Assembly (NCBI GenBank): GCA_022773305.1
Contig: JALFAW010000119.1
Span: 1 to 38,548, forward strand
DNA: 38,548 bases
Reading direction: 5' to 3'
Origin: Spirochaetia bacterium
GTDB lineage: Bacteria; Spirochaetota; Spirochaetia; Treponematales; Treponemataceae
Under the pieces are notes generated by a model. That model was given only the letters and a program-made list of their open reading frames with translations. It made no database searches and had not been told where the DNA came from. A program made the translations under genes and the position numbers. This document shows, piece after piece, positions 5,926 through 38,548 of this stretch. Positions within the stretch are counted from its first letter, which is position 1, and the number at the start of each line of letters is the position of its first letter.

Positions 5926-6016
5926 ATTATGATTTTACCTCAAATTCATTTCAGTTTACAAGAAAAATTGACAAAAATCTAGCAATTTTTTGTATTATTT
6001 ATTTCTATAAAAAAAT

Positions 6017-6331
6017 AAGGTCTGTCCCTGTTTTTTTAACATCAAGGTCTGTCCCCCATTTGAAAAATAAGGTCTGTCCCTGTTTTCAGAATATCAGCAA
6101 AGTGCAGTTAGTCAGTCGCCTTCCGCCACTTCGCTATCGCTTCGGTCTTACAGACCCGCCAAAGGCGGTGGCTCCACGCTCGGTGCGCTGTTTTTATTAC
6201 AATCTGCACTTCACATTTCAAACTGGCGAACTTAGGTCTATTCCTCGCTAAAAACAAGATGTGTCCCTGTTTTGAATAATCAAGGTCTGACCCCATTTAA
6301 TAAAAAAATCCATCAACTAGGTCTGTCCCCC
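6017..6331 (+). repeat. Cluster of seven AAGGTCTGTCCC direct repeats
   Basis: The motif AAGGTCTGTCCC(CC) occurs at 6017-6028, 6044-6057, 6069-6080, 6282-6294 (one change) and 6319-6331, with degenerate copies at 6234-6244 and 6257-6268. All copies point the same way and most are followed by a T-rich run. Spacing is irregular. Two further copies, in opposite orientation to each other, lie at 27549-27562 and 27733-27745. The GGGGACAGACC complement contains GGAC, which resembles the tetranucleotide of REP sequences used by REP-associated (RAYT) transposases; that link is an inference. Confidence 0.8.
6100..6211. repeat. GC-rich hairpin block bounded by an 8-bp inverted repeat
   Basis: AAGTGCAG (6100-6107) and CTGCACTT (6204-6211) enclose about 96 bases that are much richer in GC than the surroundings and contain short palindromes such as CCGCC-AAA-GGCGG. 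It splits the run of AAGGTCTGTCCC motifs. No coding sequence is supported. The size resembles the insertion at 27040-27149 behind gap, which is also bounded by a short inverted repeat. Confidence 0.55.
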
Positions 6332-6369
6332 TTTTCATCAGTTCTAATCATTGAGTTAAAATACGTCGA

Positions 6370-17160: not shown

Positions 17161-17198
17161 CTAAAATATACAAAACTCTTTTTTAGACTTAATATATT

Positions 17199-17432
17199 AG
17201 GTTCAATTTCGAGTATTTGATTTACAAACCGTGGCAAGGATTGTAAGGGCTGGCGAAGCCAGTTCCGAAGCGTAGCGAAGGAATGAAGGTAGCACGAAGT
17301 GCGTACGTAACCCTGGAAAGCGCGAGTTTGCAGTGCAAACTCGGGACGAGAAATGCATAGCATTTCTCGCATTTTTTGCGAAGCAAAAAGCCACCCTAAA
17401 AATAAAAAAATTCAAAACTCGACATTTGTCCT
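17199..17432 (+). mobile_element. MITE-like element, copy 1 (full length)
   Basis: A 234-bp non-coding element that begins AGGTTCAATTTCGAG and ends CTCGACATTTGTCCT; the ends form an imperfect terminal inverted repeat (about 16 of 22 positions). It is flanked by ATT on both sides (17196-17198 and 17433-17435), a probable 3-bp target duplication. Inside are perfect hairpins, for example GAGTTTGCA-G-TGCAAACTC and GAGAAATGC-ATA-GCATTTCTC. No ORF for a transposase, so it is non-autonomous. It ends 17 bases before the HPt start codon, so it lies in the leader or promoter region of that operon. Confidence 0.8.
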
Positions 17433-17449
17433 ATTAACTTGGAGAATAA

Positions 17450-25479: not shown

Positions 25480-25542
25480 ACAGACTTTTTGTACAGTCAG
25501 ACAGTTTAACTTTTCCCATGCTAAAACTGTTTTTTTCGTAAT

Positions 25543-25774
25543 AGGTTCAATTTCGAGTATTTGAATTACAAACCGTGGCAAGGATTGTAAGGGCTGGCGA
25601 AACCAGTTCCGAAGCGGAGCGAGGGAATGAAGGTAGCACGAAGTGCGTACGTAACCCTGAAAAGCGCGAGTTTGCAATGCAAACTCGGGACGAGAAAATG
25701 CTATGCATTTCTCGCTTTTTTTGCGAAGCAAAAAGCCACCCTAAAAAAAAAATTCAAAACTCGACATTTGTCCT
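25543..25774 (+). mobile_element. MITE-like element, copy 2 (full length)
   Basis: A 232-bp copy of the element at 17199-17432, same orientation, with the same ends and more than 90% identity by eye; differences are single changes and one or two indels. It is flanked by AAT on both sides (25540-25542 and 25775-25777), a 3-bp target duplication that differs from that of copy 1. It lies in the divergent valS/gap intergenic region. No ORF of its own is supported. Confidence 0.8.
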
Positions 25775-25952
25775 AATAATATATAGGAAATTGGAGAGTT
25801 ATGCAAGAAAATGTATTTTTTTATCTATTATTTAGTTTTTATTTTGAGATTTATCATAATTCTTTTATTTTTATTTTACTGTAGACTATTTTAAAAAAAT
25901 GCGTTATTCTTATAGTAATTAATCTTTAATCTAATTTTTTAGGAGATATAAA

Positions 25953-26984
25953 ATGGCAGTTAGAGTTGCTATTAATGGTTTTGGCCGTATTGGTCGTTTG
26001 GCTTTCCGTCAGATGTTTGAAGCTGATGGTTATGAAGTTGTTGCTATCAACGATTTGACAAGCCCAAAAATGCTTGCTCACCTTCTTAAATATGATACAG
26101 CTCAGGGTGGATTCATGGGTCGTATTGGTGAAGGAAAACACACTGTAGAAGCTACAGAAGATTCTATCATTGTTGATGGAAAAGAAATCAAAATCTCTGC
26201 TGAAAAAGATGCAGCTAACTGTCCATGGGCAGCAAACAAAGTTGACGTAGTTCTTGAATGTACAGGTTTCTATTGTGCAAAAGATAAGGCTGCTGCTCAC
26301 ATTACTGCAGGTGCTAAAAAAGTTGTAATTTCTGCTCCAGCTGGAAATGATCTTCCAACAATCGTTTACAATGTAAACCACAAAACTCTTACAAAGAACG
26401 ACAATATCATTTCTGCTGCTTCTTGTACAACAAACTGTTTGGCTCCAATGGCTAAAGCTTTGAATGATTATGCTCCAATCGCTTCTGGTATCATGTCTAC
26501 AATTCATGCTTACACTGGTGACCAGATGATTCTTGATGGTCCACAGCGCAAAGGTGATCTCCGCCGTTCACGTGCTGGTGCTCAGAACATCGTTCCAAAC
26601 TCAACAGGTGCTGCAAAGGCTATCGGTCTTGTAATTCCTGAATTGAATGGAAAACTTATTGGTTCTGCTCAGCGTGTTCCAACACCTACAGGTTCTACAA
26701 CTATCCTTACTGCTGTTGTAAAAGGTAAAGATGTAACAAAAGAGGGAATCAATGCTGCAATGAAAGCTGCTGCAACAGAATCTTTCGGATACAACGAAGA
26801 TGAAATCGTTTCTTCTGACGTTATCGGTATGAAATATGGTTCTTTGTTCGATGCAACACAGACTATGGTATCAAAAATTGATGATGATACATATCAGGTA
26901 CAGGTTGTTTCTTGGTACGATAACGAAAACAGCTATACATCACAGATGGTAAGAACAATTAAATACTTCGCTGAAAACTGCTAA
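25953..26984 (+). CDS. gap: Glyceraldehyde-3-phosphate dehydrogenase, type I
   Basis: Glycolytic enzyme: oxidises glyceraldehyde 3-phosphate to 1,3-bisphosphoglycerate with NAD+. The 343-residue protein has the NAD-binding N-terminus [16 protein letters not shown], the catalytic C158 in [12 protein letters not shown], the partner histidine H185 in [10 protein letters not shown], and the C-terminal [13 protein letters not shown]. It is slightly longer than usual (about 335). AGGAG lies 8 bases before the ATG. Codon use is strongly biased (repeated GCT, GGT, AAA, CGT), as expected for a highly expressed gene and visibly different from its neighbours. A perfect terminator follows, then two decayed copies of a gap 3' end. 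Confidence 0.98.
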
Positions 26985-26999
26985 GTTTTAGTGTAAACT

Positions 27000-27031
27000 A
27001 AAAAAGACCTTCTTTGGAAGGTCTTTTTTTT
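27000..27031 (+). terminator. Rho-independent terminator of gap
   Basis: GACCTTC (27006-27012), loop TTTG, GAAGGTC (27017-27023), preceded by six A and followed by eight T; the A and T runs extend the stem. It begins 16 bases after the gap stop codon. Confidence 0.95.
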
Positions 27032-27039
27032 ATGTCTGC

Positions 27040-27149
27040 AGCTGTTTTCGTTATCGTTCGATTTTACTAGTCGCTTTCTTGCTTTGCAAAAAGCTCCTGC
27101 ACGACCATACGCACCTGCTTTGGTCGTGGGTACTCTCACGAAAACAGCT
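27040..27149. repeat. 110-bp insertion bounded by inverted gap-derived sequence
   Basis: AGCTGTTTTCG (27040-27050) and CGAAAACAGCT (27139-27149) form an 11-bp inverted pair enclosing GC-richer DNA. The left arm extends to a 17-base inverted copy of gap positions 26918-26934 (CGATAACGAAAACAGCT). The right arm is the beginning of the gap 3'-end fossil that follows. No ORF is supported. Confidence 0.6.
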
Positions 27150-27199
27150 ACACTAGCCAGATGGTTAGAACAATTAAGTACTTCGCTTAAAACTGCTAA
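27137..27199 (+). pseudogene. Remnant of the 3' end of a second gap gene (fossil 1)
   Basis: The frame reads [17 protein letters not shown], stop, NC, stop, which is the gap C-terminus ([20 protein letters not shown]) with one nonsense change (GAA to TAA). Five codons differ from gap synonymously (TAT/TAC, ACA/ACT, TCA/AGC, GTA/GTT, AAA/AAG). The TCA to AGC serine change needs all three bases, so the source is likely a diverged but formerly functional gap gene, not a recent copy of the present one. Its own terminator follows at 27216-27250. Confidence 0.75.
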
Positions 27200-27215
27200 G
27201 GCTTAGTTTGTATGA

Positions 27216-27250
27216 AAAGGCATTCAAGGAAACTTGGATGCCTTTTTTTT
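27216..27250 (+). terminator. Terminator belonging to gap fossil 1
   Basis: AAAGGCATTCAAG (27216-27228), loop GAAA, CTTGGATGCCTTT (27233-27245) with one G-T pair, followed by more T. It lies 17 bases after the fossil stop codon, the same distance as the true gap terminator from gap. Confidence 0.85.
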
Positions 27251-27259
27251 GCTTTTATC

Positions 27260-27400
27260 GTACTTAATTGTTCTTTCGGTTGAATACTCGGTCGATTAAT
27301 CGCCCTCGTGTGCCGATTTTTAGGAGGAACCTAAACAAACCGCTTTGCGCTTTGTTTTTAACGGTTCTTCAATTCTTGGCAGGTTAGAACAATTATGTAC
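27260..27400. repeat. Second insertion bounded by inverted gap-derived sequence
   Basis: GTACTTAATTGTTCT (27260-27274) is the exact reverse complement of 27167-27181 in fossil 1, and pairs with AGAACAATTATGTAC (27386-27400) in fossil 2 with one mismatch. The enclosed ~110 bases contain no gene and have scattered short hairpins. Structure mirrors the insertion at 27040-27149. Confidence 0.5.
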
Positions 27401-27482
27401 TTCGCTGACCCTCCAGTCGCGTAAGCGACTATTTTAATAACTTCCTTAATGGGCTCGGTATGAAGTACCGTATAACTGCTAA
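27380..27482 (+). pseudogene. Second gap 3'-end remnant, interrupted (fossil 2)
   Basis: Positions 27380-27408 read as the codons Q-VRTI-M-YFA of the gap C-terminus (ATG of QMV missing) and then break off; AACTGCTAA, the last gap codons and stop, resumes at 27474-27482. About 65 bases intervene, with GAAGTAC (27462-27468) forming another inverted match to GTACTTC (27398-27404). It shares the GTT codon with fossil 1, so it probably arose from fossil 1 or the same source. Confidence 0.6.
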
Positions 27483-27536: not shown

Positions 27537-27548
27537 GCTGAAAATAAA

Positions 27549-27745
27549 GGGGGACAGACCTTGTTTTTGTTTTTGTGTAATTTTTTGGGGGCGTTGCGGG
27601 GGTGTCCCCCGCAGAAGGGGTGGCGGACAAGCAACAAAGCGGAGAGAATCGGCACTGCTTGCAGGGACGATTCTTGGAGCGACTTGCTTGGGAGACAGGG
27701 GAAGGCTTTCCCCTTCAGAAATACTAAAATCTAAGGTCTGTCCCC
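27549..27745. repeat. GC-rich hairpin block between two inverted AAGGTCTGTCCCC motifs
   Basis: AAGGTCTGTCCCCC lies inverted at 27549-27562 and direct at 27733-27745. Between them is a GC-rich block that contains GGGCGTTGCGGGG (about 27589-27601), the hairpin TGCGGGGG/CCCCCGCA, and several further short palindromes; it belongs to the family at 22621-22716. Open frames across it are low-complexity translations of the repeat and are not genes. Confidence 0.7.
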
Positions 27746-37749: not shown

Positions 37750-37910
37750 AAATGTCGAGTTTGATTTTTTATTATTTTTTTGGGTGGCTTTTTGCTTCGC
37801 AAAAAACAGGCTATCCGGGGTTCCGCTATCGCTGCATTCCTTCGCTACGCTTCGGAACGGCTTCGCCGCCCCTACTATCCTTGCCACGGGAAAGTCTAAA
37901 TCGCACTTTT
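37750..37910 (-). mobile_element. MITE-like element, variant copy (inverted)
   Basis: Inverted relative to copies 1 and 2. The right end (AATGTCGAGTTTGATTTTT), the GGTGGCTTTTTGCTTCGC block and the CTTCGC...CCTTGCCACGG block are retained; the hairpins with GCACGAAGTGC and GAGTTTGCA are absent and the left end after CCTTGCCACGG has diverged. With the copy at 38430 it forms a shorter subtype (both have GCTATCGC/GCGATAGC). It lies between the WYL and XRE genes. Confidence 0.65.
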
Positions 37911-38429: not shown

Positions 38430-38548
38430 AGGTTCAATTTCGAGTTTTTTAATTTTAAACTGTGGCAAGGATTGTAAGGGCTGGCGAAGCCAGTTCCGAA
38501 GCGGAGCGAAGGAATGAAGCGATAGCGTAACCCTGAAAAGCCTGATTT
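38430..38548 (+). mobile_element. MITE-like element, variant copy (cut by window end)
   Basis: Begins AGGTTCAATTTCGAG like the full copies and continues through GTGGCAAGGATTGTAAGG, GGCTGGCGAAGCCAGTTCC and GAAGCGGAGCGAAGG. It then reads GCGATAGCGTAACCCTG and AAGCCTGATTT, so it is the shorter subtype. Right end lies beyond the window. Its left end faces that of the inverted copy at 37750-37910, with the XRE gene between. Confidence 0.75.

Follow-up and report, generated by a model that had tools for sequence, protein, structure and literature searches.

The window, as we call the whole 38,548-nt stretch of DNA that was analysed, contains four copies of a repeated, hairpin-rich element (Table 1). 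Copies 1 and 2 are 94% identical to each other and, as an earlier sequence-only reading had claimed, possess common ends (AGGTTCAATTTCGAG / CTCGACATTTGTCCT) and lie between ATT/ATT and AAT/AAT, respectively. That reading had also listed two shorter copies. The left end of the one at 38430 is perfect, but the window itself ends inside this copy, and its duplication is unreadable because the contig end at 38548 cuts the copy. The one at about 37.75 kb is inverted, as described, and its core is conserved, but its left end is unrecognizable and its right end degenerate.

Table 1. Coordinates of the elements in the window and of transposase loci elsewhere in the analysis.
Feature	Position	Strand	Details
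MITE copy 1	17199..17432	+	234 bp; modules a1-b1-c2-D-e1
Target duplication, left flank of copy 1	17196..17198	.	ATT
Target duplication, right flank of copy 1	17433..17435	.	ATT
Left end of copy 1	17199..17213	+	AGGTTCAATTTCGAG
Right end of copy 1	17418..17432	+	CTCGACATTTGTCCT
Hairpin core of copy 1	17231..17394	+	from GTGGC (17231-17235) to GCCAC (17390-17394)
Inner closing helix of copy 1 core	17246-17249 with 17311-17314	+	AGGG pairs with CCCT
Exchangeable cassette C in copy 1	17289..17307	+	form c2, GTAGCACGAAGTGCGTACG; alternative form, CGATAGCG
Exchangeable cassette D in copy 1	17322..17370	+	49-bp double hairpin, GCGAGTTTGC..TTTCTCGC
MITE copy 2	25543..25774	+	232 bp; AAT at 25540-25542 and 25775-25777
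Old core copy	37782..37889	-	decayed ends; short form without cassette D
MITE copy 4	38430..38548	+	short form, cut by contig end
Truncated IS982-family transposase	L141 (contig C177) 1069-1922		PF13612, 1.3e-26; NCBIfam NF033520, 2.9e-34
Internally deleted IS982-family copy	L159 (contig C229) 16161-16814		
RAYT-like transposase gene with flanking second repeat	L127 (contig C227) 4300-5270		gene of 248 aa; PF01797

Ends, target sites and distribution of the family

The source genome is a Treponema draft of 3.1 Mb in 321 contigs, in which copy 1 as a query gave 61 matches. Allowing up to 2 mismatches, the left end has 212 and the right end 188 occurrences in this genome, compared with four for each of the reversed control patterns; the abundance of these ends is far above chance, and the genome contains about 200 copies of the element. 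We collected 81 complete, distinct copies of 107–308 bp, none of which contains a protein-coding gene and all of which keep imperfect terminal inverted repeats of about 15–18 bp. The 3-mers flanking the copies are identical in 52 of the 81 (64%), whereas 3000 shuffles of the flanks gave 13.4 on average and never more than 26, and flank repeats of 2, 4, 5 or 6 bp occur at the chance level; the other 29 copies do not have a perfect 3-bp duplication. The duplicated triplet is chiefly ATT or AAT and is preceded by T in 45 and followed by A in 45 of the 52 cases, which gives T-AWT-A as the consensus of the target. Copies with two left-type ends and no right end occur as well (L121 4632-4805 and L023 1330-1561), therefore the left and right ends seem to be interchangeable.

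The genome-wide survey of copies that the sequence-only reading had proposed thus returned defined ends and the 3-bp duplication; it had also proposed a search for empty sites in close strains. When the sequences on either side of copies 1 and 2 were joined and used as queries against ten related genomes, the site of copy 2 was empty in one of them (G172), where a single AAT is present and the sequence reads TTTTTCGTAATAATATATAGG, and was occupied at the orthologous position in another (G111), showing both the duplication and the precise insertion. The element is also absent from the copy 1 region in G169, but the site itself has diverged there. With defined ends, a fixed 3-bp duplication, an empty site in a relative and presence/absence variation, the element is a MITE, a non-autonomous DNA transposon without genes, in agreement with the initial description of it as MITE-like.

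The copies had also been said to sit by divergent genes, which is true in the window only. Genome-wide, 30 of the gaps holding copies are co-directional, 12 divergent and 7 convergent, and 30.6, 10.1 and 8.2 are expected from intergenic length. There is no sign of a host function for the MITE, since the copies are spread over intergenic DNA as its length would predict and are randomly oriented. Of 160 termini of 80 whole contigs, 49 fall inside an element, and many contigs start or stop 120–150 bp within one, indicating that the family itself fragments the assembly.

Beyond the source genome, the left end was detected with at most 1 mismatch in 88 of 196 genomes of the genus, some of these matches being at chance level according to the controls. 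The same ends with 3-bp duplications enclose unrelated interiors in other Treponema (L262, L279, L280, L285, L286, L291, L295-L297). Scanning contigs of public genomes for the right end together with its target yielded 24 loci. Of these, 22 come from MAGs labelled Treponema, Spirochaetes or Spirochaetia and one from T. zioleckii kT3, and the remaining one is a chance-level match elsewhere. A lone right-end match in a Gastranaerophilales contig (L241) was set aside, as it is at the chance level for a 19-base pattern in 257 Gb.

Alternative modules around a paired hairpin core

The interior of the element is composed of modules that occupy fixed slots in alternative forms. The left arm is a1, a2 or a3, the core hairpins are b1 or b2 and the right arm is e1 or e2; the cassette C slot holds c1 (CGATAGCG) or c2 (GTAGCACGAAGTGCGTACG), and the next slot holds the double hairpin D or, in copies without D, CTG. 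A 73-bp cassette F is present in some copies and absent from others. The single-strand fold of copy 1 is better than that of each of 200 shuffles, both as DNA (z = -5.1) and as RNA. The 4-bp closing helix covaries genus-wide, with 11 different fully paired quartets, and 94–100 of 115 extracted rows are paired per position as compared to 67–72 after shuffling, counts that include some spurious matches and are inflated by the relatedness of the sequences, so that the shuffles overstate covariation. The hairpin core is found throughout the genus, in other species also without these ends.

The compensated quartets, the conserved linkers and the occurrence of the core without these ends could mean that the core is above all a structured RNA of Treponema, or else a structure of single-stranded DNA under selection, which was captured between transposon ends and in which the cassettes are tolerated stem replacements. 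However, no Rfam family matched the core, its copies are not placed or oriented in any consistent way with respect to genes, and the replacement of whole cassettes would suit a specific RNA function poorly. We therefore regard a primary role as structured RNA or DNA as unlikely and favor a MITE in which a paired core and the string of hairpins around it, found across the genus, lie between the transposon ends. Near-threshold matches to the Rfam TD-1 and TD-2 RNAs of Treponema were observed on opposite strands of an intergenic region (L099 475-618), about 1 kb from a core copy; these RNAs are likewise hairpin-rich and intergenic, but differ from the MITE core in sequence and place.

Ends in common with IS982-family elements

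Within the 1.09 Mb of the source genome that was read, no intact transposase gene was reached from a MITE end, and in a search of 19 other genomes no long end pair enclosing a transposase was among the matches listed, which stop short of G199 and some others. Self-comparison of the source-genome contigs exposed a repeated IS, and IS982-family sequences were identified at two loci, one encoding a truncated transposase (L141) and the other internally deleted (L159). The truncated protein scored 118.7 bits against NF033520, the IS982 model, which is below the cut-off of 130. Homology between the two loci stops at inverted ends, which in L159 are AGTCTGAATTTCGAGTTT and AGCCTGAAATTCGAGTTT, each with a single mismatch to AGGNYVAANDTCGAGTTT, the consensus of the MITE ends that had been drawn before the IS was seen. 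Along one strand of 508 kb, 38 windows lie within 2 mismatches of this consensus, nearly all of them MITE ends, with another 29 at 3 and 254 at 4 mismatches. In relatives (L246, L097 and L229), the ends of MITE-core elements grade toward the IS ends. A third IS982-family copy is interrupted, about 62 bp from its end, by a MITE (L144 16090-16322 in contig C58 and L089 1-247 in contig C66), and the two contigs are apparently the two sides of this interrupted copy.

A genome-wide search with PF01609 revealed one IS982 locus only, and every IS982 copy found in the source genome is defective. The MITE, which has no transposase, also differs from the IS in its outermost bases, AGG..CCT as compared to AGT/AGC, and in its 3-bp duplication, which in the only clean IS982 copy is better read as 4 bp (AAAT). 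The transposon with the same ends that had been predicted was thus found in part, as defective IS982-family elements with ends one mismatch off but not as an intact copy with exact AGG ends in the 1.09 Mb read. With outer bases that differ and no intact copy among them, none of these elements could be named as the exact partner, and an intact IS982 element could sit in the part of the genome beyond this 1.09 Mb. Judging from the shared ends, an IS982-family enzyme is the most likely mover of the MITE.

The duplications of ISL2 elements have the form ANT, and an ISL2-type transposase was accordingly the first guess from the 3-bp duplication; this candidate was dropped since PF13359 is absent from the source genome. 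More broadly, the mover could be an IS5-family transposase of the ISL2 or IS1031 group, which make 3-bp duplications like those of PIF/Harbinger, in which case the likeness to IS982 ends would be coincidental or secondary. The length of the duplication fits this idea, as canonical Harbinger elements, which are related to the IS5 family, generate 3-bp duplications (PMC12730594). For such an enzyme the profiles PF13359 and PF01609 were searched. PF13359 had only 3 matches in the 196 genus genomes, the non-IS982 matches of PF01609 lack MITE ends in their vicinity, and the IS982 ends match those of the MITE on both sides, making an IS5-type mover improbable. The DDE_Tnp_1 candidates named ISAs1-like and IS1182-like by reading of their sequences were rejected, as no MITE ends lie near them.

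Taken together, we consider it likely that the MITE was moved in trans by an enzyme most probably of the IS982 family, that its target is T-AWT-A and that its cassettes were later exchanged in place. A DDE transposase supplied in trans would recognize the imperfect inverted ends and insert the element at intergenic T-AWT-A sites, with a stagger of 3 bp that would leave AWT on either side. The later exchange of hairpin cassettes between copies in place would most simply proceed through short-tract homologous gene conversion or template switching restricted to the interior, so that the arms stay linked while the cassettes reassort.

Cassette exchange and comparison with other hairpin repeats

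In 58 classifiable copies, 22 full module combinations were counted. The left and right arms are linked to each other (r = 0.72, p = 6e-10); cassette C is independent of both arms (r = -0.04 and 0.03) and is linked only to its neighbor D (r = 0.75). Linked arms with a free middle cassette match the prediction of interior exchange. Orthologous sites were also compared between species. In genomes G021 and G047, two orthologous insertions (L287/L290 and L285/L291) have nearly identical flanks and arms, and a short hairpin in one is replaced by a hairpin of about 50 bp in the other. In G169 and the source genome (G000), two orthologous core copies carry D or CTG(A) in surroundings that are 97–99% and about 88% identical, and in one case (L185) the neighboring base typical of D-bearing copies moved along with the cassette change. 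Cassettes were thus exchanged in place after landing at four orthologous sites, for which short-tract conversion or template switching would be the simplest mechanism. Independent transposition of a few ancestral combinations, with no exchange in place, could also create a mosaic and would agree with some combinations being common (10, 9, 5 and 5 copies). It is nevertheless very improbable, given that orthologous copies in two species are distinguished by entire cassettes and that the middle cassette is at equilibrium with either arm while the arms are linked.

Cassette D was also observed by itself, interrupting hsdM in five species (L104 1501, L105 1501, L109 111, L114 347 and L115 263 in G041, G142, G150, G116 and G009, respectively). 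It lies at the same place in each, replacing the CTG of GAAATCTGGTACTGG and bringing a stop and a frame change, with the protein sequence conserved on both sides. As two of the five genes have additional lesions, an exchange of pseudogenes between species is a likelier reading than translational bypassing. In a further locus (L103 1501, G096), D lies close to the hsdM start. The triloops of the two hairpins in D (L001-L193) come in reverse-complementary pairs, AAT/ATT and ATA/TAT, as if single hairpins had been flipped. Tentatively, the cassettes may be exchangeable structural parts under selection: the multi-branch core with its covarying closing helix would take up entire new hairpins in place through copying that depends on structure (hairpin-induced template switching), with D also able to leave the element and enter unrelated sites such as hsdM, although we would sooner doubt this reading than adopt it.

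Like other bacterial MITEs, the family is short, gene-less and present in high copy number, with terminal inverted repeats, a target duplication of fixed length and ends in common with an insertion sequence of the same genome. It differs from them in that its interior consists of reassorting hairpin cassettes and in that, of its autonomous partner, the genome contains only defective relatives whose outer bases are slightly different. Cassette D resembles the double-hairpin elements of fungal and algal mitochondria as a mobile-looking hairpin pair in differing contexts, but it is a module inside a bacterial MITE, and the likeness is one of form and not shown as descent. No published Treponema MITE was found in the open-access literature searched; the MITE class is already known, and the family and its cassette shuffling appear to be undescribed in that literature. 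This very abundant family of gut Treponema, which is tied to IS982 and breaks draft assemblies, is noteworthy for the behavior of its cassettes, as the amount of in-place hairpin exchange is unusual. Orthologous copies that differ only in a cassette, together with linked arms and free cassettes, offer a concrete system for how dispersed bacterial hairpin repeats become mosaics.

REPINs and BIMEs, the GTAG- and CGTC-tagged palindromic repeats, are likewise dispersed intergenic hairpin repeats of mosaic composition, and the CGTC type has been reported from Spirochaetes (PMC3733652); unlike them, the MITE has a fixed target duplication and defined transposon ends, and no RAYT adjoins its copies. 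The strong hairpins, the GTAG ahead of the closing helix in many cores and the RAYT-like gene of the source genome would suit a REP/REPIN-like repeat moved through single-stranded hairpins by a tyrosine transposase (RAYT). This reading is hardly credible, since the fixed 3-bp duplication would be unexpected from such an enzyme and the repeat that flanks the gene, GGGACAGACC, is a different one. Integron attC sites were considered as well, and no core sites were noticed. In the window, a second repeat, AGGTCTGTCCC / GGGACAGACCT, is present at 6011-6096, 6301-6334 and 27546-27579; it flanks the RAYT-like gene in contig C227, and is probably the REP-like repeat of that enzyme. Three copies of another sequence, GGTTAGAACAATTAAGTACTTCGCT, spaced by about 217 bases, follow the glyceraldehyde-3-phosphate dehydrogenase gene at 26948-27406 of the window.
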